From Ferrimonas futtsuensis DSM 18154 (GTDB taxonomy: Bacteria > Pseudomonadota > Gammaproteobacteria > Enterobacterales > Shewanellaceae), in the NCBI RefSeq assembly GCF_000422645.1, contig NZ_AUGL01000002.1, positions 124,001-188,000 of the forward strand: 64,000 bases of DNA, given 5' to 3'. Each line of letters opens with the position of its first letter. The first letter of the stretch is position 1. Below the pieces are notes generated by a model. The model was not told the origin of the DNA, did not search any database, and saw only the letters and a program-made list of their open reading frames with translations. Below, piece by piece: positions 8,101 to 45,320 of the stretch. Made by a program: the position numbers and the translations under genes.

Positions 8101-10080
8101 TTAGCCACTTGGGCCACTCTTGCTGACATCCATCGGGGAAGCTGTGCCATTGCCTGCTCTTAGGACCTGGCGCAGCTTGCGGAACTGGCGCCACATCGCC
8201 AGCCTGAGGAGTCGTCGCTGACTTGCGGGGGGATCGGCGTAGCGCAGACGGTTGAAGAGGCGTTGCAGGTGGCGAACCGGGAGAGCAGCAGCTGGGCAGT
8301 GGTTCCGGGTTAGGGTCACCAGTTGGGATACCGACGCAGCGGGGGCTGGTCGGGCACCGAGCTGGGTCAGGCGCTTTGACAACCAGCGCCACAGCAGCAG
8401 CTCCAGAGAGGGCAGTCTGGGCGGGGTCAGCATCCTGGCGAGTTTCAGGTGAATCAGCAGGGTGCCGAGCATGATGGCGGCGGCCAGCAGCAGCAGGTGC
8501 TGAACGGAGAGGCGTCCCAGCCACTGGCTCAGCCACTGCTGCTGACTGAGGCGGTCAAAGCCGCTGACCTGCTGATGCCACAGGGCATTGAGGCTGTCGG
8601 CCCAGGCGCCCAGGGTGCGCACCGGGGGGCTCTCCTTCAGCCAGCCCGTCAGCCCCCACCACTGGGCCAATCGCTGCTCCCCCAGTATCTGTACCCGGTC
8701 CGGCGCCACCATGTTGGTGGGGTCACTGCGGACCCATCCCTGAGAGGGCAGCCAGTACTCCACCCAGGCGTGGGCGTTGAGCTGACGCACCTGAAGCCGG
8801 TTGCTGTCGCCCAGCCAGCGCCCTCCTTGGTAGCCGGTGACCAGCCTGGCGGGAATGCCTGCGGCCCTGAGTACAAACACCATGGCGCCGGCATAGTGAC
8901 CGCAGAATCCGGCCTGGGTCTCAAACAGGAAGTCGTCTATCTCATCGGGGCCCGTCGCCGGTGGAGAGAGGGTGTAGTGGAAAGGGTGCTCCCTGAACCT
9001 GAGCAGCACTCTGTGGACAATCTCTCTTTGGCTAAGGCCCATCAGGGATTGTCCCAGTTGTCTGGCTCGGGGATTGCCCGACGGAGGCAGCTTAAGGGCC
9101 TCGGCGATCGCCGCAGGGGCCGCCGGTACTGCCCTGGGCCGCCAGCTCAGCACCTGATCCTGGGGATTCCTTCCCTGCCACAGTCCGTCCCCCAGAGGGC
9201 GCATGCCGGGGGAGAGTCCCTGGCTCATGGCCAGGGTGGGTAGTCTGACTCCGGAATACCAGTGGCTGATGCGGTACAGGTGCCCCTCTTCCGCCCGGGT
9301 CGCGGTCATGGCGTCCAGGGGGTAGGGGCGGGCGCCGTGCCAGGTACGGCCATCATAGAGGTTGTGAATCCACACCCGGAAATAGAGCAGCTCCTGGGGA
9401 GGTCGCAGCTCGAAGCTGGCGTTGAAGGCCATTTCGGTGGACTGGGTCAGCTCGGCAATCTCCCCCAGGGACAGGGTATCACTCAGGCCGGTTTCCGCCC
9501 CCGGGCGCACGCCCTGGTGCCAGAGAGGGTCCACCCTGGGGATCAGCAGATAGAGCAGCAGGGTCATGGGCAGGCTGAACAGGGCCAGCCGCAGGGTGGT
9601 GCCCAGGTTGCTGCGGGCAGAGCTGCTGCTGTGCAGGCTCAGCAGTACGGTGATGTTCAGGGTGAACAGCGCCAGGGCCGAGGCCAGTTTCAGCGGGGAT
9701 TGCTGGGGGATGAGGCTCAGGGAGATCAGGAAAAAGCCCACCAGGGTCAGCACCAGGATGTCCCGCCGGGAGCGCACCTCCAGGGATTTCAGGCTGTAGG
9801 CCAGGGCGATCATCACCGACAGGGTGATGGCCAGCCCTTCCCTCAGGTAGAGAGGCACCAGGCTCAGCAGCACCATCAATGAGATCAGAAACAGCACAAC
9901 CGGGCGGGGCGGCGGGACTTTTCCGAGAAAGATCGCCAGCCGCCAGGCCAGGGTCAGGTTGGCGATGGCCAGAGCCCAGTCCGGCAGGATGCCAATCAGG
10001 TGCACCACCATCATCTGCTGGGTCAGCAGCAGCCACCCCAGGGTTTGGCGCAGGTTTGCCTGAGGGGAGTCAGCCCCCAT
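8101..10080 (-). CDS. TgpA-like membrane transglutaminase (DUF3488 / transglutaminase core)
   Basis: 659 residues. The N-terminal third is a cluster of membrane helices (about residues 15-190). The periplasmic core contains a Cys-His-Asp triad: FCGHYAGAMVFVLRAAGIPARLV with the Cys, NAHAWVEYW with the His, and RSDPT with the Asp. A further membrane helix and a cytoplasmic tail of about 110 residues follow. Relatives include Pseudomonas TgpA; the natural substrate is unsettled. ATG 10080 overlaps the DUF58 stop by 11 bases, so translation is probably coupled. It belongs to the conserved MoxR-DUF58-transglutaminase module. Confidence 0.92.
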   Translation of the reverse strand: MGADSPQANLRQTLGWLLLTQQMMVVHLIGILPDWALAIANLTLAWRLAIFLGKVPPPRPVVLFLISLMVLLSLVPLYLREGLAITLSVMIALAYSLKSLEVRSRRDILVLTLVGFFLISLSLIPQQSPLKLASALALFTLNITVLLSLHSSSSARSNLGTTLRLALFSLPMTLLLYLLIPRVDPLWHQGVRPGAETGLSDTLSLGEIAELTQSTEMAFNASFELRPPQELLYFRVWIHNLYDGRTWHGARPYPLDAMTATRAEEGHLYRISHWYSGVRLPTLAMSQGLSPGMRPLGDGLWQGRNPQDQVLSWRPRAVPAAPAAIAEALKLPPSGNPRARQLGQSLMGLSQREIVHRVLLRFREHPFHYTLSPPATGPDEIDDFLFETQAGFCGHYAGAMVFVLRAAGIPARLVTGYQGGRWLGDSNRLQVRQLNAHAWVEYWLPSQGWVRSDPTNMVAPDRVQILGEQRLAQWWGLTGWLKESPPVRTLGAWADSLNALWHQQVSGFDRLSQQQWLSQWLGRLSVQHLLLLAAAIMLGTLLIHLKLARMLTPPRLPSLELLLWRWLSKRLTQLGARPAPAASVSQLVTLTRNHCPAAALPVRHLQRLFNRLRYADPPASQRRLLRLAMWRQFRKLRQVLRAGNGTASPMDVSKSGPSG

Positions 10081-10984
10081 GGGGCACCTCGGCCAACCTG
10101 TCCAGAACTCTGCCCAGGTGGTCGCCATCCAGCCCTGGGGTGATCGTCATACGAGCTCCCCGGAGCCCAAAGGGAATCCCCTGCTGCTGGCAGTGCAGCG
10201 CCGCACCGGCCAACTGACTGAGGTGCTGCTCCAGATCGCCGTGGCCAGGGTTGAGTTCCAGCCAGTAGGCCTCGTTACTGTGTTCATTGAACTGCTTGAG
10301 CATCTTGCCACGCTGTCTGGCCAGCTGTTTCCAGTCCATTCGAGAGAGGCTGTGGCCGGGTTGCCAGGGACACAGCCCATCCAGCTCCTGCCACTGGCTG
10401 GTCTGGGATGGGGAGGACACCGCAGGGATGGACTGGCTTGGCGGCAGCGGGCTGGGCCAGACCCAACACCCTACCTCTGGCCTGATATGGGCCCAGACCC
10501 GGCACAGACCCAGGGGGTAGTGACTGCTGACGCGAACCCTGCCGGGGCTCAGCCTGCCTCGCTCTCTTCCCGGCTTTCCCAGCTCGAGTCGCTGCCCCGG
10601 GGTGGCCAACAACTGCAGCCGCTGCTGGGCACCTTCGTCCAGGCTCAGTGTCAGTGCGTGGCGTTCACGGTTGCTGATCAGCTCCAGGGGAAACCCCACC
10701 TGCTGGCCGGCAAAGCTGGAGCGACCCTGCTGAAACCTCAATGAGAGTCCGGAGAGGTTGCGAAAGCAGATCAGCAGGCAGGAGCTGAACAGGCTGAACA
10801 TCAGGAAGGAGAGGATCAGGATCAGGTTGTTCTGGTAGTTGGAGCCAAAGACAAACAGCACCCCGGCAAGGGCAAGATAGAAGAGACCAAATCTTGAAGG
10901 CAGGATGAGAATGTCGTTGTGTTCCAGGCGTGCATTAGGGCAGGCCTGAATCTCCGGTGGTTGCCAGAATCTCGGAATCTTCAT
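10070..10984 (-). CDS. DUF58 family protein
   Basis: 304 residues. Two adjacent membrane helices near the N-terminus (about residues 30-80) are followed by a cytoplasmic domain. The family hallmark is near residue 220 as SRMDWKQLARQRGKMLKQF. The DUF58 part resembles a von Willebrand-A-like fold. The start ATG 10984 overlaps the stop of the ATPase gene in an ATGA, and the end overlaps the transglutaminase start. The protein is thought to work as a membrane partner of the MoxR ATPase; the exact role is unknown. Confidence 0.9.
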   Translation of the reverse strand: MKIPRFWQPPEIQACPNARLEHNDILILPSRFGLFYLALAGVLFVFGSNYQNNLILILSFLMFSLFSSCLLICFRNLSGLSLRFQQGRSSFAGQQVGFPLELISNRERHALTLSLDEGAQQRLQLLATPGQRLELGKPGRERGRLSPGRVRVSSHYPLGLCRVWAHIRPEVGCWVWPSPLPPSQSIPAVSSPSQTSQWQELDGLCPWQPGHSLSRMDWKQLARQRGKMLKQFNEHSNEAYWLELNPGHGDLEQHLSQLAGAALHCQQQGIPFGLRGARMTITPGLDGDHLGRVLDRLAEVPHGG

Positions 10985-38401: not shown

Positions 38402-39154
38402 ATGCGCTGTCCCCACACCGATGCCCTCAGGGTGAAATGTCAGGCCGTCCTCGATGTGACCGAAGGGATGATCGATCAGCAGGGGTTGATCTCATTCAAG
38501 TTGTCTCAGGTCGCCAAGGAGGCGGAGATTGCCAACTCCACCTTCTATAAGCTGTTCGAGAGTAAGGAGGACCTGTTGGTGTGCTGCTTCATGCGCAACG
38601 CCACCTGCAATCACTTTGACGATTTCGAAGCCGAACATCCGGGAATGTCCGCTATAGAGCGGGTGCTGCTGCCCATCATATTCACCTTTGAGGCGACTTA
38701 CTTCTCCCCCAGCTTCAATCTGGTTCGTCAGGTGGCGGTCAACAGCCGGGTGTGGCGCCTGGCCAGTGCCGACAAGGCCAAGGCGTTCGAGAATCGAATC
38801 AACCTCTATTGGGAGAGGATCACCGGATACCTGAAGCAGGCGGTGACCGAGGGCGAGCTGGTCGCTTCGGACGATGAGGTGAGGGAACTGGCCCAGGCGA
38901 TCACCTTTTACCTGAGTGGTGCCCTGTCTGCCTATGAGTGCCGTCTCATTGGCAAGGAGTTCCTGCAGGAGAAGCGACAGACCCTGTTTCGTCAGCTGCA
39001 AAATGTGTTTAAACCCTATGGTTGGCGAGAGCCTTTGACCCTGGCGCTGTTCGAACGGGTGGGCGTTCGGGTACACATGTACTACCAGGCCCATCACCGA
39101 GACTTTAACAGCTGCGCCCGCTGCATGGCGATGCAGGCGAAGCTGAGCGGTTAG
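38402..39154 (+). CDS. TetR-family regulator with terminal cysteine motifs
   Basis: 250 residues. The N-terminal helix-turn-helix reads KLSQVAKEAEIANSTFYKLF (about residues 33-52), followed by an all-helical ligand domain. It is longer than most TetR proteins: a C-terminal extension ends in HHRDFNSCARCMAMQ with a C-x-x-C pair, and the N-terminus has MRCPH plus another Cys at residue 13. Redox or metal sensing is therefore possible but not shown. It is co-directional with the antiporter-like gene. The ribosome site (AGG) is weak. Confidence 0.85.
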   Translation: MRCPHTDALRVKCQAVLDVTEGMIDQQGLISFKLSQVAKEAEIANSTFYKLFESKEDLLVCCFMRNATCNHFDDFEAEHPGMSAIERVLLPIIFTFEATYFSPSFNLVRQVAVNSRVWRLASADKAKAFENRINLYWERITGYLKQAVTEGELVASDDEVRELAQAITFYLSGALSAYECRLIGKEFLQEKRQTLFRQLQNVFKPYGWREPLTLALFERVGVRVHMYYQAHHRDFNSCARCMAMQAKLSG

Positions 39155-39852
39155 GTTGTTAGGCGCGCAGGGGCAGGCTCCCCTTTGGGGGCCTTTTATT
39201 TTCAGCCTGACATTGCTTTCAAAGAAGGAGGTGTTCGCTGGGTGCCTGAAGTGCCCATGTTAGACGTCACAGCGTGAGTTATCAGCAAGCTGATTAGATA
39301 CCAATAGGCATTCGCCGTTCTATACCTTCCTATACCTTCTTCGCTTTCACTTCCACAGGACACCGAAGTCTTAAACGAAACCTTATGAAGGAGTGGTGCC
39401 GTGTTGTTGGCTTACTGTAAATCGCTTATCGGAAGGATATTGGCCTTGGTGAAGACTTTGTGCTCTTCGGTCTCTCAAGGGACCATTGGTTTAGTCGGGT
39501 TTGAACCGAAAGACGCAATTCCTACTTTGCCCTAAAAAGCCTCGTTTCCACAGGTAACGCCCTTTCGGGCCTACTCCGACACTCTGAACCATCTGCTGAC
39601 AAAGGGAAGCCGATTGCGGTGTGGTCAGCGGTCCACGGGTCTGAACATCAATTTGAGCCTTTAACGGATCTCTCAATAGCTCGAAATACTCTGTTTAGAT
39701 ATTTCATTTTCCGGTCTTTACTCTTTGCCAGATCAGAGCTAACTTCTAACTGATGTTGCAATTAAATCTTTGATTTATAAGGTTTTTATAATCCGAAATT
39801 TGTATATTTCAAAATGTTGAAATGCAAATTCTAATGTCATGGAGAGATGAAA
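39155..39852. other. Intergenic region before the split-Soret-like gene
   Basis: About 700 bases. No known gene is recognised. One 44-codon plus-strand frame (GTG 39401 to TAA 39535) has AAGGAG seven bases before its start and a hydrophobic N-terminal half; a 61-codon minus frame (39491-39676) has nothing to support it. The last 150 bases are AT-rich, as expected for a promoter. TATACCTTC occurs twice in tandem near 39325-39345. Confidence 0.5.
39174..39200 (+). terminator. Terminator of the TetR gene
   Basis: GGCTCCCC / GGGGGCC hairpin with loop TTT, followed by TTTTATTTT, 20 bases after the stop codon. Confidence 0.75.
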
Positions 39853-40779
39853 ATGAATGTAGACCGACGTCAGGCGATGGGAAGAATAGTGGGTTTGGCC
39901 GGAATGGCAGTGGGTACCTCAGTGGTGTCGAACTCTGTATTTTCTGCAGAAGGTTGCCCGGTCGATACTGCCATCGGGCTTGGAAGTGACGGTGGCGGAG
40001 AGCTGAAGGAGAGCCTACTCCAGTATGTCCCTCTGGATCCGATGAAGGTGGCCAAGCGGGGCTACGAAGGTTACGGGCGAGGCGGCTGCATGTACGGTGT
40101 ATTTGATGCCATCATCAAGGAGCTGGCCGAACAGGGGCATGAGGACGCCTGCAACTTCGCAGCCATTCCGACTAATATCACCATTTACGGTGGTGGTGGT
40201 GTCAAGGGCTGGGGTTCTATCTGCGGCTGTGTTAATGCTGCAGCCATGGCAGTAAACGTGCTGGCTGGCGTGGATCAGGCGGCGGTCATCGATGCGGTGT
40301 TCCGATACTATGAAAAGACGCCCATGCCCCGTGGGGATGAGGCGTTCCTAGGTGCCATCGGGGCACCGACGCGACAGGCCGATGACGGTACGCCGCTTGG
40401 GGCGGAACTGATTGGCCAATCGGTAGCCAATACGCTGCTGTGTCACACTTCCGTGTCTCATTGGTCCAGCGCCAGCAAGTTTGGAGCTTCTCATGCCGCC
40501 AAGCTGGAGCGCTGCGCCCAGGTTACTGCAGAGGTGGCCTTCATTACCGCAGATTTTCTGAATAAATCGTTGGCGGGAACTCTGGATTCCGAAAGAAAGG
40601 CCCCCGAAAACGACGAATGTAGCGCCTGTCACATGCCGACTAAGCGCGAGCCTGAGGACTACATTGGTACCGATGTTAACGCCAAAATGGAGTGTAAGAC
40701 TTGTCACTCCGCTCACGAAAAGGTCGGTCCTATTCCTGACCATGCCGACAATGGGCAATGCGAATCATGTCACAAGTGA
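39853..40779 (+). CDS. Split-Soret-like trihaem c-type cytochrome (C_GCAxxG_C_C family)
   Basis: 308 residues. The Tat signal has DRRQAMGRIVGLAGMAVG at the N-terminus. The body (about residues 35-245) has the Cys spacing of the C_GCAxxG_C_C family: GRGGCMYGVFDAI, GWGSICGCVNAAAM and a later ERCAQ. The tail has three haem-binding motifs, CSACH (about 256), CKTCH (about 281) and CESCH (about 303). The relation to Desulfovibrio split-Soret cytochrome is by family; the extra haem motif is seen here. Probably periplasmic electron transfer. ATG 39853 is preferred to 39847 because GGAGAG is six bases upstream. A lipoprotein follows after 11 bases. Confidence 0.85.
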   Translation: MNVDRRQAMGRIVGLAGMAVGTSVVSNSVFSAEGCPVDTAIGLGSDGGGELKESLLQYVPLDPMKVAKRGYEGYGRGGCMYGVFDAIIKELAEQGHEDACNFAAIPTNITIYGGGGVKGWGSICGCVNAAAMAVNVLAGVDQAAVIDAVFRYYEKTPMPRGDEAFLGAIGAPTRQADDGTPLGAELIGQSVANTLLCHTSVSHWSSASKFGASHAAKLERCAQVTAEVAFITADFLNKSLAGTLDSERKAPENDECSACHMPTKREPEDYIGTDVNAKMECKTCHSAHEKVGPIPDHADNGQCESCHK

Positions 40780-40790
40780 GGGGGAGAGTG

Positions 40791-41264
40791 ATGCGTAATC
40801 TATTCATTATTGGTTGCCTGACCCTGTTACTGGCGGCATGCGGATCCGATGACAATACGCCAGAACCGGCGACCAGCGTCACCCTGGACCAGGCCAACAG
40901 CGTTGTGTTAATCGCGGGGGCTGTGGATGCGGACAGCCTGGCTATCGCCTTCCGCTTGGCCAACGAGGATGGCCTTGCCATTACCGATGCCGGGAGCAAC
41001 TTTGAGGTGATGTACCTTGGTTTTCCCGGTGAGTATGACTCATCTTTTGATATGCCATGGCACCAGGCCGAACAGTTTGTCTGTGTTGGAGGGGGAGTAG
41101 AGTGTGGCGGTGACCTCATTGAGCTGGAGCCGGGCTCTTACCTGTTTACCCCGGCAAACCTGCCGGAGCTGGCTCAAACCATGGCTAGGTTGCGTTACTC
41201 TATAAGGGTACATGGTGCACTGGCCAGCAATACACAAGAGCTGTTTGATATTCCAAGGAGCTAA
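40791..41264 (+). CDS. Lipoprotein co-transcribed with the split-Soret-like cytochrome
   Basis: 157 residues. Signal peptide with lipobox LLAACG, then an Asp/Pro-rich linker and one beta-rich domain (about residues 25-140). No haem motif. Two close Cys pairs (FVCVGGGVECGG) may form a disulfide. The domain recalls the haem-free beta domains of MtrC/OmcA-type outer-membrane cytochromes (an extended strand followed by N-F-E-V-x-Y-L-G), but that is a weak visual likeness. GGGGGAGAG precedes the start. It may anchor its partner cytochrome at the outer membrane. Confidence 0.65.
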   Translation: MRNLFIIGCLTLLLAACGSDDNTPEPATSVTLDQANSVVLIAGAVDADSLAIAFRLANEDGLAITDAGSNFEVMYLGFPGEYDSSFDMPWHQAEQFVCVGGGVECGGDLIELEPGSYLFTPANLPELAQTMARLRYSIRVHGALASNTQELFDIPRS

Positions 41265-41304: not shown

Positions 41305-41398
41305 TCCGGCTATCATCACTGTCTTAATACCTCAGGAAACAGGATCTGTTTAAAAGCCCCTTTAAGGGAATTTCGATACGGAGCTCTGTCACCGTCTG

Positions 41399-41424
41399 AA
41401 AAAAGGCTCCCTTGCGGGAGCCTT
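41399..41424 (-). terminator. Terminator of the flavoprotein-cytochrome-cupin-porin operon
   Basis: AAGGCTCCC / GGGAGCCTT stem, loop TTGC, with TTTTTT following on the minus strand. 28 bases after the porin stop. Confidence 0.9.
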
Positions 41425-41451
41425 GGCGTGTGTCAGGAGTTGAGAGTCGGC

Positions 41452-42579
41452 TTAGAAGTAGTAGCCGAAGTTGATGTTGATGCGCTGGTCCCAGCCGTCG
41501 CCCGCTTCCTTGAGGCCAACGTGGTCATCCATCTCGGTGGAGAAGGTCATGTTCTTGCCCATCACGAAATCCGCCATGATGTACAGGGGGCCAGCGGCGA
41601 TGGCGGCACCGGTGACGTTCTGGTAGCTGTTGTCATAGCTGTCGTCGTCAGTGTCCGGGGTCATCACGCCGAAATCGTTGTAGATCTTCACACTGCCCCA
41701 GTCGGTGGGAATGGTTTTGGCGATGTTGAAGTTGTAGGCCTGGCCCTTGGAGGCGATCTCGTACTGCCAGCTCACCACGGAGACGCCGATCTTGTTGGGA
41801 TCCACCCCCTCCTGGTTCTTGGCATCGTACTCATATTGCATTGCCTGCAGCTGGATGTTCCAACCGTTGAAGCTGGAGTCCAGGTGAGCGGCGATGGCGT
41901 AGCGGTCGCCATTGTCTTCGGTCTTGCTGTTGTAGATCTGACCCCACTGCACCGAGCCACCAAGGGTGGTGCTGCCGCCGTCGTGCTCCAGGGTGTAGGT
42001 CTGGCGCAGGTTCAGCTGGTTGGTCTCTTCGTTGTAGTACTCGGTGCCGTTGATGGTGCCGGTGTACAGGTCGGTGGCGTAACGCTTGTTCTCAGACGCG
42101 CCGTATTCAGGGTTCTTGTAGAAGCCCAGATCGGTGTGCCACTTGCCGTTGTCGAAGGTGGCCTTGATGCCCACATCATGGTCATCCTCGAAGCCCAGGT
42201 AGTAGGGGATACCGAACCACCAGCTGTTGGAGATGAAATCGCGGTTACCGAAGGGCACCTTGTTGATGCCGAACTGGATCTGCCACTCCGGGGTGGCGTC
42301 GTAGTAGCCGTAGCCGTACTTGATGTAGTGGGTGCCTGAGGTGAAACGGTACTCGGAGGAGAGGCCCCAGTCGCCGTGCTTGCCGTTGAACTTGATGGCG
42401 GCCATGTCGAAGGTCAGGTCACCGGCCTTGTCCTTGGAGCTGTCGCTGTAGAATTTGAGGCCGTAGTTCACCCGTACGGCACCGCCGACGCTGATGCCGT
42501 CTTCCTGGGCCTGGGCCACGGGGTTGAGCAGGGCGAAGATGGCGCCTGCCACCAGGGAAAGCTTGGTTGCGTGTTTCAT
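41452..42579 (-). CDS. Outer-membrane beta-barrel porin
   Basis: 375 residues. Signal peptide ends at AQAQ. The rest shows alternating hydrophobic strands, many Tyr/Trp/Gly/Asp and a C-terminal aromatic strand (INFGYYF) ending in Phe, the outer-membrane insertion signal. No cysteine in the mature part. ATG 42579 is chosen; the frame runs on far upstream through the cupin gene without meaning. It is the last gene of the operon and probably admits the operon's substrate. Family could be OprP/porin-like; specificity unknown. Confidence 0.85.
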   Translation of the reverse strand: MKHATKLSLVAGAIFALLNPVAQAQEDGISVGGAVRVNYGLKFYSDSSKDKAGDLTFDMAAIKFNGKHGDWGLSSEYRFTSGTHYIKYGYGYYDATPEWQIQFGINKVPFGNRDFISNSWWFGIPYYLGFEDDHDVGIKATFDNGKWHTDLGFYKNPEYGASENKRYATDLYTGTINGTEYYNEETNQLNLRQTYTLEHDGGSTTLGGSVQWGQIYNSKTEDNGDRYAIAAHLDSSFNGWNIQLQAMQYEYDAKNQEGVDPNKIGVSVVSWQYEIASKGQAYNFNIAKTIPTDWGSVKIYNDFGVMTPDTDDDSYDNSYQNVTGAAIAAGPLYIMADFVMGKNMTFSTEMDDHVGLKEAGDGWDQRININFGYYF

Positions 42580-42599
42580 GGTATTCACTGCCTTAATCC

Positions 42600-42618
42600 G
42601 AGCCGGCAAGGCCGGCTC
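42600..42618 (-). promoter_or_regulatory. Intercistronic hairpin, cupin to porin
   Basis: GAGCCGGC / GCCGGCTC with a 3-base loop, 20 bases after the cupin stop and 20 before the porin start. No T tract follows, so mRNA processing or 3'-end protection is more likely than termination. Confidence 0.55.
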
Positions 42619-42638
42619 AACAATCTGATAGGTTGTAT

Positions 42639-43376
42639 TTATTTTTTGAATTTGTCTTGGTTGGTGCCGTAGGGCCCCAGGTCCATGGCGGCCTTGCGCA
42701 GGGCGTCGACGCGGTCGAAGGCCTCTTCGGCAACACGCAGGTTCTTCACGTCTTTGCGCCAGTAGTACTTGAAGCCATCGAAGTGGGCGTTCTTGGGATA
42801 CCAGTACATCACGCCGAAGCCCTGTTCGTCGGTGATGGGGGTGTTGTGGATGGTGTTGCCGGGGATGTAGAAGTACATGCCCTTCTCCATCCACTTGTAC
42901 TGGCCGTCCGCCAGGGTACGGGCACGGCCGGAGACGGCGTAGTAGCACTCAGGCTGGCCGTGGAAGTGTGGGGCGTGATCAGATTTGCCGCCGTTGGTGA
43001 TGCCGATAACCACGGGGGCGTCGGACAGCTCCTTCCACAGATAGCCCACCGGGGCGTTGTCCAGTTTGCAGTCTTCGGCTTCCATGATGTTGCCGTCGTC
43101 GTCCATGGTCTTACAGAAACGCTGGTCTTTGGCGATGGAGTCGTTGGACTTGATGGTGTTGAAATCCACACGGCCCGCTTCCCAGTCGGCGATGTACTGC
43201 TCGACCAAGGGGTCACGACACTGCTCGGGCATGGTGGCCTGCGGAGAGTAGGGGGTGGAGTCATAAGGAATGGCGGTGGCCTGCTGGTAGGGCAACTGGG
43301 CGTGTTCCAGGTGAGCGTTGGCCATAACGGAACCGGAGCACAGGGCGCCGAGGATCAGTGCGAGTTTCTTCATCAT
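42639..43376 (-). CDS. Exported cupin protein, possibly DMSP-lyase-like
   Basis: 245 residues with a signal peptide ending at SVMANA. A cupin domain (about residues 105-200) shows H137-F-H139 then E143, Y145 and, in motif 2 (YIPGNTIH), H177. This is a full metal-ligand set with a nearby Tyr. From memory, the DMSP lyase DddQ has the same His-His-Glu-Tyr-His spacing, but part of that spacing is general to cupins, so the activity is only a hypothesis. The protein is shorter than DddY. Four Cys suit a periplasmic location. Its place between a flavoprotein/cytochrome pair and a porin suggests it supplies the reductase substrate. Confidence 0.75.
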   Translation of the reverse strand: MMKKLALILGALCSGSVMANAHLEHAQLPYQQATAIPYDSTPYSPQATMPEQCRDPLVEQYIADWEAGRVDFNTIKSNDSIAKDQRFCKTMDDDGNIMEAEDCKLDNAPVGYLWKELSDAPVVIGITNGGKSDHAPHFHGQPECYYAVSGRARTLADGQYKWMEKGMYFYIPGNTIHNTPITDEQGFGVMYWYPKNAHFDGFKYYWRKDVKNLRVAEEAFDRVDALRKAAMDLGPYGTNQDKFKK

Positions 43377-43403
43377 TCTCTTCCTATATATTGTTGTGTT
43401 TGA

Positions 43404-43428
43404 GGCGGCAGGCGCGGGGCCTGCCGCC
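43404..43428 (-). promoter_or_regulatory. Intercistronic hairpin, cytochrome to cupin
   Basis: Perfect 10-bp stem GGCGGCAGGC / GCCTGCCGCC with a 5-base loop, starting eight bases after the cytochrome stop. No T tract. Likely protects or trims the upstream mRNA so the first two genes are expressed differently from the last two. Confidence 0.55.
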
Positions 43429-43435
43429 AAATGGG

Positions 43436-43801
43436 TTACATCTCGTCGAACCAGGTGCGGTGGCACTCGGAGCAGACCGGAGCCTTGGTTTGGTGTTCGC
43501 CATGACAGGCCAGGCAGCTGGCGCCCTGATTGAAGTGGATGCTCTTGTGAGGGTTGGCTTCCTCGAGCACCAGTTCACGGGTCACTTCGATGTCGTTGAT
43601 GTTGCCGTGGCAGTCGATGCAGGCGCTGTCGTCCACGTATTTGCGGGCAGAGCCCTGGTGGCAGGTTTTGCAGCCCTCTTCGTAGATAAAATGGTGGTTG
43701 GTGCGGCCTTTGGTGGCCCCCTTTACCTTGACCAGATCACCGGCCTGGGCGGTATTGCACAGGGCCAGCATCAGTCCCAGGGAGATCAGTACTCGTTTCA
43801 T
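43436..43801 (-). CDS. Periplasmic tetrahaem cytochrome c
   Basis: 121 residues with a signal peptide ending at AQA. Four haem-binding motifs are visible: CKTCH (44-48), CIDCH (61-65), CLACH (96-100) and CSECH (110-114), with several further His for the distal ligands. Size and spacing match the small tetrahaem cytochromes and the haem domain of Shewanella flavocytochrome c. It starts 10 bases after the flavoprotein gene with GAGGAG ahead. It most likely carries electrons from an inner-membrane quinol dehydrogenase to the flavoprotein, as a separate subunit instead of a fusion. Confidence 0.93.
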   Translation of the reverse strand: MKRVLISLGLMLALCNTAQAGDLVKVKGATKGRTNHHFIYEEGCKTCHQGSARKYVDDSACIDCHGNINDIEVTRELVLEEANPHKSIHFNQGASCLACHGEHQTKAPVCSECHRTWFDEM

Positions 43802-43811
43802 GGCGTTCTCC

Positions 43812-45320
43812 TCAGGCGTCCGCTTTGATGGTCTTGGGCACGATCATGCCCATGGTCAGGCACTCCAGGCAGGAGGTGGAGCTCAGGCGTGCGTGGCCGT
43901 GTACCCCACCGGTTACCTCTCCGGCACCGTACAGCTTTTTGATGGGCTTCATGGTGCGGCAATCCAGCACCCGGCCACCCATGTCGGTTTTCAGGCCGCC
44001 CATGCAGTAGTGAACCTTGGGCCAGATGCGGCTGACCACGAAGGGGGGCTTAAGCTCGACGGCGGTGTCCATCTTGCGACCGAAGTCGGGATCGTTGCGT
44101 TTGGGTACCTGGGCGTTCCACTGGGCCAGGGTCTGCTTCAGCTCGGCCAGAGGGACGTTGAACTTCTCGGCCAGCTGCTCCAGGCTGTCCACCCTCCAGG
44201 CCATTTCGTCCCGCAGGGCGCGGACCACACGGTCATCGTCGGGGTGGTCGTTGTAGTTGAACAGCACCAGCGGATAGGCAGGGGTGCCGTCCTGATGGCG
44301 GTTTTTCATGATGGCGGTGGAGCAGGTCAGCCGGTCGGCGCGCTCGTTCATGTAACGTTTGCCGCTCAGTACGCTGACGGAGATCCCCTCGTGCCAACCG
44401 ATGGAGAGCAGGGCGTTGGACCAGCCGAAGCCGCCTTCATCAGGAGAGCCCCAGTGACCGGTCTGGATCATGTTGAGGTGAACCGGCAGGGCTCCGTGGG
44501 CCATGGCGGCCAGCATCACTTCGCCGGTGGCGCCCAGGTGGTTGGTGCCGTCCAGGGTGGGATCCAGGGATGGGTCCACGGCGGCGCGCAGGGCCATGTT
44601 GCGGGTGAAGCCACCGGAGGCGCAGATCACTGCCTTATTGGCCTTGATGCGCACCAGGGAACCGGTTTTCTGGTCGGGGAAGCGATAGCCGCGGCGAACC
44701 ACCACACCTTCTACTTCACCCTGGTCGTTGAGGATGAAGTCCTCGATGTAGTGCTGCAGGCGATACTCCACGCCCTCTTTCTTACCCGCTTCATACAGCT
44801 TGGTGGTGATGTCACCGCCGGTGCCGTGCTTGGTGCGGATGGCGCGGGCCTTGTTGTGGCCACCGACCTGGATGTTGAAGTTTTTGCGGAACTCGACCCC
44901 GGCATCGACGCACATGTGGTAGGCGCCCAGTGCGTGTTCGGCGATCTGGGTCAGCATCGCCTCATCGGCCATACCCCGGCCGGAGATCATCTGATCCTTC
45001 ACCAGTTCGGCCGGGCTGTCGTCTTCGATTCCCTGAGAAAGTTGGATGGGGTTGTTGGGCACGGCAAACCAACCGCCGTTGATGGCGGAGTTACCCCCAA
45101 TAACTTGCATCTTCTCCAGGACCAGGACCTTGCCCAGCCCCTGACGTTTGGCATTCAGTGCGCTGGAGAGGCCGGCGAAGCCGGAACCGATCACCAGTAC
45201 ATCAACCTCTTCATCCCATTTGGTGGCTGGGCCGGCGGTTGCCACCGCGGGCAATCCTGCTGCCAGGCCACCGGCGGCCAGGCCGGCACCGAGTCGCAGG
45301 AATGAACGTCTGTTCGACAT
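43812..45320 (-). CDS. Tat-exported flavoprotein reductase (fumarate-reductase superfamily)
   Basis: 502 residues. Tat signal NRRSFLRLGAGLAAGG, then the FAD-binding GSGFAGLSSA (about 46-55). Compared with Shewanella fumarate reductase, the catalytic proton-donor Arg (R330 in NERADRLTCST) and the second carboxylate-binding Arg (R478 in GHARLSS) are kept. One substrate His is replaced (VHHTMGG becomes VHYCMGG, Y438), and the WIQ-x-H-P region reads MIQTGHW. So it probably reduces a different unsaturated acid, such as acrylate, urocanate or an aryl acrylate. GGAGAA precedes the start. First gene of the four-gene operon. Confidence 0.92.
   Translation of the reverse strand: MSNRRSFLRLGAGLAAGGLAAGLPAVATAGPATKWDEEVDVLVIGSGFAGLSSALNAKRQGLGKVLVLEKMQVIGGNSAINGGWFAVPNNPIQLSQGIEDDSPAELVKDQMISGRGMADEAMLTQIAEHALGAYHMCVDAGVEFRKNFNIQVGGHNKARAIRTKHGTGGDITTKLYEAGKKEGVEYRLQHYIEDFILNDQGEVEGVVVRRGYRFPDQKTGSLVRIKANKAVICASGGFTRNMALRAAVDPSLDPTLDGTNHLGATGEVMLAAMAHGALPVHLNMIQTGHWGSPDEGGFGWSNALLSIGWHEGISVSVLSGKRYMNERADRLTCSTAIMKNRHQDGTPAYPLVLFNYNDHPDDDRVVRALRDEMAWRVDSLEQLAEKFNVPLAELKQTLAQWNAQVPKRNDPDFGRKMDTAVELKPPFVVSRIWPKVHYCMGGLKTDMGGRVLDCRTMKPIKKLYGAGEVTGGVHGHARLSSTSCLECLTMGMIVPKTIKADA

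Follow-up and report, generated by a model that had tools for sequence, protein, structure and literature searches.

What is an exported cupin doing in one operon with a periplasmic reductase? The question is raised by a 64,000-nucleotide stretch of the Ferrimonas futtsuensis DSM 18154 genome (the window), in which a four-gene unit on the minus strand, spanning 41452-45320, encodes a flavoprotein, a small cytochrome, a cupin that we call cupin A, and a porin. A first-pass annotation had proposed that the cupin makes the substrate of the reductase in the periplasm, with the conversion of dimethylsulfoniopropionate (DMSP) to acrylate as its leading guess. The first part of this idea, with the cytochrome as likely electron donor, held up in the computational analysis reported here; the second fared badly. 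With moderate confidence, we favor a reading in which a periplasmic lyase of the eliminating type supplies the flavoprotein with an enoate, forming a respiratory lyase-reductase cassette of the kind found in operons of the DMSP lyase DddY, with another lyase in its place. As substrate of the cupin we consider an onium (betaine-like) carboxylate probable, one that resembles DMSP without DMSP being the main compound. The unit consists of the following parts:

43812..45320, minus strand: flavoprotein with a twin-arginine translocation (Tat) signal, 502 amino acids, twin-arginine start MSNRRSFLRLGAG, R330, H437 and R478; G288 replaces the fumarate-binding His
43436..43801, minus strand: small tetrahaem cytochrome c, 121 amino acids, four CXXCH motifs, Pfam Cytochrom_c3_2, Sec-like start
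42639..43376, minus strand: single-domain cupin A, presumed eliminating lyase, 245 amino acids, Sec-like start, DddK-like active site H137, H139, E143, Y145, H177 and Y204
41452..42579, minus strand: porin (PORIN_A), 375 amino acids, Sec-like start, predicted outer-membrane protein
41403..41424, minus strand: terminator hairpin, 9-bp stem, GCAA loop, then a U run

The operon is real, and the gene content read by the first-pass annotation was recovered in full: Tat flavoprotein, tetrahaem cytochrome, exported cupin and porin follow one another with gaps of about 10, 59 and 59 bases and are closed by a hairpin. This single terminator, which the earlier reading had also claimed, was not listed by a pattern scan and was recognised by folding, the minus strand at 41393-41432 giving a 9-bp hairpin plus U run at -17.6 kcal/mol (z -4.88). 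The signal peptides, twin-arginine on the flavoprotein and Sec-like on the other three proteins, were judged by reading the sequence. Assignment of the flavoprotein to the flavocytochrome c/fumarate reductase superfamily was borne out by its score against NCBIfam TIGR01813 (522.7 bits, cut-off 285.45) together with the catalytic Arg and the carboxylate-binding His and Arg, and the tetrahaem cytochrome is its presumed electron donor. The porin matched no Pfam or NCBIfam family at E <= 1; its AlphaFold model (predicted local distance difference test score, pLDDT, 90.8) is a beta barrel, with MOMP, DcaP, OmpT and Omp32 as the best Foldseek matches in the PDB, the chain ends in an aromatic residue (YYF) as expected of an outer-membrane porin, and its sequence shares 59% identity with the porin encoded in the genome's DddY operon.

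That DddY operon, on contig C11, opens the main argument for the cupin as a lyase. There a flavoprotein and a tetrahaem cytochrome stand with DddY (706.4 bits against the NCBIfam equivalog, cut-off 650) and a porin, with LysR and an acuI match nearby. The acuI gene matches in two pieces in different frames (L141:13153-13923) and is possibly broken or affected by a sequencing fault. Another Shewanellaceae locus, L109, whose DddY cluster was located through a yhdH search, carries acuI, LysR, flavoprotein, cytochrome, DddY and porin; its DddY matches PDB 5y4k (E 4.1e-59) and exceeds the NCBIfam DddY equivalog cut-off. At L144:8828-11341, two DddY-type genes stand in tandem before the porin, the second being 42-43% identical to the DddY of L109. 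Returning to F. futtsuensis, contig C1 holds a second cupin, cupin B, with its own flavoprotein, cytochrome and porin (module B, the operon of the window being module A), and at about 204-212 kb of C1 lies a further set, in which a porin 65% identical to PORIN_A is followed, 2.2 kb on, by an exported protein that scores 414 bits on Lyase_aromatic and then by a flavoprotein and a tetrahaem cytochrome. The genes of this set are:

L160:5994-7640 and L160:7900-9944 (C1, same genome): ergothionase-like set, exported lyase beside Tat flavoprotein and tetrahaem cytochrome

The best solved relative of this lyase is ergothionase (PDB 6s7j, E 2.8e-85), ahead of the histidine ammonia-lyases (HAL), and it stays under the NCBIfam HutH cut-off (268.6 versus 539). 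Ergothionase converts ergothioneine to thiourocanate and trimethylamine, and periplasmic ergothioneine respiration is a possible function of the set. Of the 30 best-matching loci retrieved for its lyase, 29 also have a flavoprotein of the same type next to it (the flank of the other, L175, showed none), and 52 of the 152 family genomes contain full-length matches of at least 65% identity. L161 has another exported Lyase_aromatic protein, more distant in sequence, with the same gene company. A group C cupin interrupted by one in-frame stop also lies in that locus, at 9438-10148, next to a flavoprotein that is open and a cytochrome.

One reductase chassis is thus found together with several kinds of lyase. 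In addition, there are six reductase-cytochrome pairs (L159, L196, L198, L199, L201 and L204) whose flanks, read over about 1-1.5 kb (18 kb for L159), contain neither DddY nor a cupin or ergothionase-like match, as expected if the lyase is a feeder. One of them, L159:6989-8941 on contig C4 of the same genome, is a near-identical second DddY-type flavoprotein with its cytochrome, and no DddY, cupin or porin match was found in its 18 kb. Because lyases are exchanged and lyase-less pairs exist, the reductase-cytochrome pair resembles a chassis, with the lyase as an exchangeable feeder, and it is this pattern that argues most strongly for the window's cupin as a lyase.

The cupin itself points the same way. 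It matches Pfam Cupin_2 just above the cut-off (28.7 bits, cut-off 27.2) and no NCBIfam family at E <= 1, and its AlphaFold model (pLDDT 84.6) finds the DMSP lyase DddK as the six best Foldseek chains of the PDB (E 3.5e-8 to 1.1e-7), with a root mean square deviation of 1.6 over 102 columns and 22-24% identity over the barrel. A profile built from 34 relatives gives DddK as the best single-stretch match (E 4.8e-7, 32.2 bits). In DddK, His56, His58, Glu62 and His96 are metal ligands, Tyr64 is catalytic and Tyr122 binds the carboxylate (PMC10686828, PMC12582016). His56, His58, Glu62, His96, Tyr64 and Tyr122 align to H137, H139, E143, H177, Y145 and Y204 of cupin A, respectively, and none of the six varies in any of the 71 cupins (68 distinct) compared from groups A, B, C and E, a set that leaves out the fragment L060. 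Of the aromatic cage that surrounds the sulfonium in DddK (Tyr21, Trp26, Phe108, Trp110 and Phe117), the last three positions could be mapped; they correspond to Val189, Tyr191 and Phe199 in group A and to Tyr, Tyr and Phe in group B. As far as the residues tell, cupin A would be DMSP-lyase-like, yet it stands outside the curated DMSP-lyase families.

The pairing with the reductase is also seen across genomes. In 84,980 named species, each represented by one genome, a scan that required either of two peptide patterns found the cupin at 49 loci, the closest named relatives being F. sediminicola, F. sediminum and F. kyonanensis (cupin 94-97% identical). The recurrent genes of module A are those for TetR, flavoprotein, tetrahaem cytochrome, porin, often a second porin, and cupin, in varying order; in many Shewanella it is adjoined by the paralogous module B, made of TetR, flavoprotein, cytochrome, cupin B, a DUF3299 protein and porin. 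The second porin (PORIN2, e.g., L014:8382-9515) is found in many Shewanella A operons, and the member tested is weakly DcaP-like (24.4 bits, cut-off 27). All 18 B loci and 37 of 43 A loci (a count that keeps L060) have both a flavoprotein and a cytochrome no more than 6.5 kb from the cupin, and the same distance from the A cupin includes a porin at 33 and a TetR homologue at 38 of the 43. Three of the six A misses (L027, L039 and L060) fall at contig ends.

Of the family's 152 genomes, 66 have DddY, and in 64 a cupin of this kind is present (E <= 1e-10). With group labels given by identity (A at least 65%, B 31-39%), 43 genomes have both cupin A and DddY, 17 only cupin A, 23 only DddY and 69 neither, a co-occurrence above chance (Fisher p 1.7e-8, uncorrected for kinship). 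Group C rows were omitted from this count, and the three genomes concerned have A too; one genome labeled B (G304) really carries group E and also has A. In a sample of 398 genomes of the phylum, only 3 genomes of 2 genera had the cupin at E <= 1e-15, so the family looks largely confined to Shewanellaceae (Shewanella, Ferrimonas and Paraferrimonas). The named scan contained, by title, three outliers: Falsirhodobacter, Granulosicoccaceae and a contig titled Marinobacter nauticus. The module A of this last (L020) is very close to that of Ferrimonas balearica, and the genome is possibly mislabelled. No relative of cupin A was found in the plasmid collection at E <= 1e-5.

What the reductase may accept was approached through its pocket. 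Aligned to the urocanate reductase UrdA, the flavoprotein has R330 for Arg411, H437 for His520, R478 for Arg560 and G288 for Tyr373 (the UrdA chain numbering of the alignment is offset by 128 from the residue numbers in PMC7921117). Arg411, His520 and Arg560 of UrdA hold the substrate carboxylate and donate the proton (PMC7921117). Conservation of the catalytic Arg residues (R330 and R478), claimed earlier, was thus confirmed. The earlier proposal that Y438 is a substrate His that was lost had to be rejected on the alignment with UrdA and the fumarate reductase Fcc3: the carboxylate-binding His is the neighboring H437, which is kept, and the motif HYC is shared by 70 of the 73 flavoprotein rows, among them those linked to DddY, the exceptions being three fumarate- or urocanate-like rows. 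The FrdA and SdhA of E. coli presumably have His-Tyr at this position as well. That fumarate is an unlikely substrate still stands, through G288 instead of Y438: this is the position of the His that binds the second carboxylate of fumarate (Fcc3 His364/365), and the Fcc3-like rows of the same genome (L155 and L156) carry His there.

The 73 rows exclude flavoproteins with stops or with fewer than 440 aligned residues, and 34 of them were used for a tree. In this tree, the A, B and DddY-linked flavoproteins each lie on one side of a branch (support 100/100, 100/100 and 86/88, respectively), and these three together with the ergothionase-linked one are split at 100/100, with a warning for long branches, from the three rows of the same genome termed fumarate- or urocanate-like from their motifs. 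The A flavoprotein thus forms a clade separate from the DddY-linked one, at 42-43% identity and with another pocket stretch: the pocket loop reads IQ[TS]GHWGSPDEGGFGW in 40 of 40 A rows and IQSGPWASPDEGGFGY in 10 of 10 DddY-type rows, in 18 of 19 B rows (L051 being short of two residues) and in 3 of 3 C rows. Since B and C share this loop with the DddY type and A does not, the B and C flavoproteins probably reduce acrylate or a close compound and the A flavoprotein another small enoate, to judge from sequence. Acrylate reduction by the DddY-linked flavoprotein is itself inferred from gene order.

Put together, the parts of the operon suggest the following scheme. The porin would admit a small organic acid through the outer membrane; the exported metal cupin would eliminate its leaving group by a DddK-like mechanism, with the carboxylate bound by the metal and Tyr204 and the alpha proton abstracted by Tyr145, to leave an alpha,beta-unsaturated acid. 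With electrons from the tetrahaem cytochrome, as is usual in this family, the flavoprotein would reduce that acid, which would thereby be the terminal electron acceptor. The lyase-reductase cassette is favored by the DddY-like operon plan, the replacement of the lyase by others, including the HAL-family lyase in the same genome, the linkage, the DddK-like fold and residues, the grouping of the lyase-linked flavoproteins apart from the fumarate- and urocanate-like ones, the lyase-less pairs and the co-occurrence with DddY.

Several observations weigh against this scheme. The cupins are, as a class, catalytically very diverse, and the fold list of cupin A continues after DddK with phosphoglucose isomerase (6.1e-7), the quercetinase YxaG (7.7e-7) and KdgF (1.4e-6). 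Val occupies the cage position of DddK Phe108 in 47 of 47 A cupins. The comparison with DMSP-lyase profiles, which the first-pass annotation had called for, did not favor its guess: PF16867 (DMSP_lyase, cut-off 27) gave no match to cupin A in the whole genome, it stayed below the cut-off on the relatives (cupin B 21.1, C 14.9 and E 18.4 bits), and an unrelated ChrR-type cupin of the same genome outscores cupin B on it (about 22.5 bits). Below the cut-off, the model does match 25 of the 34 cupin A relatives at E <= 1, the best being cupin B at 2.9e-4. A PF16867 match at C1:310228 (L001 and L010) was rejected as uninformative, being a ChrR-type cupin with 119.9 bits on Cupin_7. The cupin profile gave nothing meaningful against 14 DddY-type sequences (probability 19.6% over 19 columns), and the identification of cupin A as a DddY was rejected, given this lack of a profile match, the lack of an NCBIfam match at E <= 1 and its length of 245 amino acids.

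Other adverse points concern the context of the gene. Three cupin A homologues (L054, L057 and L058) have no flavoprotein within 6.5 kb and lie off contig ends, a flavoprotein piece and a cytochrome being found about 9.5 kb from the cupin in L058, and the group E cupins (L164 and L165) are also without flavoprotein. These five suggest that the cupin works in another context too; their neighborhoods pointed to no clear substrate. In module C (L162 and L163), the cupin is nearer A (45-49%) and the flavoprotein nearer B (58-61%), so cupin and reductase are not strictly kept together. Finally, the pattern scan gave no sigma-70-like promoter site for the operon. The group E cupins stand with TetR and a DUF3299 protein (L164:8843-9583 and L165:8311-9048, no flavoprotein match in 18 kb). 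A diaminopropionate ammonia-lyase and an M24 peptidase are found in the neighborhood of the one in L164, and RidA-like and M20-like genes, judged by eye, lie near the group E cupins.

How do other explanations fare? The original guess can be restated broadly: cupin A would be a further lyase of DMSP or of dimethylsulfoxonium propionate (DMSOP), its product acrylate and the flavoprotein an acrylate reductase. DddK as best fold match and the six conserved residues fit this, all known DMSP lyases also cleave DMSOP, DddK being more efficient with it (PMC10686828), and in the 17 of 60 cupin A genomes without DddY the cupin could meet the same need. However, the other 43 of the 60 have DddY, the F. 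futtsuensis genome has a DddY operon with its own reductase, the reductase pocket of the A rows differs from that of the DddY-type rows, the cage Phe108 is Val, and neither the 64-kb window nor the 49 named cupin loci contain an acuI match (E <= 1e-10). The presence of DddY and the different pocket make DMSP a doubtful substrate of cupin A, and these points, together with the missing match to curated DMSP-lyase models, leave the explanation unlikely. A second possibility leaves the lyase in place and concerns the purpose of the reductase, which would detoxify the unsaturated acid, serving as electron sink for a toxic product and not for energy-conserving respiration. Acrylate detoxification has been proposed as the origin of related reductases (PMC4427408), and acuI, an acrylate-resistance gene (PMC3338564), adjoins DddY operons. 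Against this, respiratory reductases of the family usually follow this very plan, a periplasmic enzyme that has a tetrahaem cytochrome to itself; gene order alone cannot separate the two, and we regard detoxification as quite unlikely. Least probable, in our view, is a non-eliminating cupin, be it a quercetinase-type dioxygenase, an isomerase or a uronate-opening enzyme acting before or after the reductase: YxaG tops the profile list (E 1.1e-7 with two domains summed, best domain 24.1 bits), sugar isomerases and KdgF come close behind in the fold comparison and the tested member of PORIN2, a porin that many Shewanella A operons contain, is weakly similar to DcaP, but YxaG has Phe (domain 2, the better-matching one) or Ile (domain 1) at the position of DddK Tyr64, which is Tyr145 in cupin A, an oxygenase would by our reasoning be ill-suited to an anaerobic reductase operon, and DddY and a HAL-family lyase replace the cupin elsewhere.

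The lyase-reductase cassette may be part of a wider pattern. We consider the chances slightly less than even that Shewanella and Ferrimonas possess interchangeable periplasmic cassettes that join a common reductase-cytochrome-porin chassis to varied exported lyases (DddY, at least three groups of the new cupin family and ergothionase-like lyases), each turning an onium solute, e.g., an osmolyte or an antioxidant, into a private electron acceptor, and that the cupin of the window founds a new family of periplasmic betaine/onium lyases. If true, these bacteria would respire more than the acceptors that they encounter: marine solutes would be turned into electron acceptors in their periplasm, by several cassettes side by side in one genome, and the turnover of osmolytes and antioxidants, with the release of dimethyl sulfide, trimethylamine or related gases, would be tied to anaerobic respiration. 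Genes adjoining such a reductase and porin would then offer a route to new lyases. The DddY arrangement is already known (noted in PMC3338564 and discussed in PMC4427408); in the open-licence literature searched, this arrangement is described and we found no account of the cupin A family, of the lyase exchange or of such a reductase paired with an exported lyase of the ergothionase type.

The surroundings of the operon in the window contain one further gene with counterparts at the other loci:

38402..39154, plus strand: TetR-family regulator, homologue of the regulator adjoining the operon in relatives

It is parted from the porin by two genes without counterpart in the compared loci. These two genes overlap (39847-40779 and 40758-41264); one encodes an exported protein with a C_GCAxxG_C_C domain and three CXXCH motifs, the other a small, lipoprotein-like one.

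Compared with known systems, the operon combines features of several. With DddK of SAR11 (PDB 5tfz and 6a53), its best fold match, cupin A shares the metal ligands, the catalytic Tyr, the carboxylate-binding Tyr and their spacing; unlike DddK, it has a Sec-like signal, about 90 residues before the barrel, a C-terminal helix, and Val for Phe108. An exported homologue of ergothionase (PDB 6s7j) takes the part of the lyase in another cassette of this genome; it belongs to a different family (Lyase_aromatic) and lies outside the window operon. On the reductase side, the flavoprotein belongs to the superfamily of Fcc3 and UrdA and keeps the equivalents of R330, H437 and R478; it differs from Fcc3 by G288 for His and the absence of a haem domain, and from UrdA by G288 for the hinge residue Tyr373 and the absence of an FMN domain or an extra N-terminal domain, and the Fcc3- and UrdA-type rows of the same genome fall in another clade. 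Another parallel, as far as descriptions go, is the Mrd/Mcc methacrylate redox system of Geobacter sulfurreducens AM-1, in which a haem-less Tat flavoprotein and a separate tetrahaem cytochrome also share one operon and the fumarate-binding His is also lost, being replaced by Trp (PMC4427408); a lyase and a porin are part of the window operon, whereas the parts of PMC4427408 consulted mention none for Mrd/Mcc. A further relative is the DddY cluster, represented in Shewanella sp. MR-4 by dddY, acuI, fccA and fccB (PMC3338564). DddY exceeds 400 amino acids and gave no meaningful profile match to cupin A, which matches neither of the DddY equivalog models NF053571 and NF043049; the regulator is LysR there and TetR here, acuI stands near DddY, and the flavoproteins are 42-43% identical with different pockets. 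Yet in the same bacterial lineage, both arrangements place a Tat flavoprotein of the same subfamily, a tetrahaem cytochrome and, in the loci read, a porin beside an exported cupin-type lyase.

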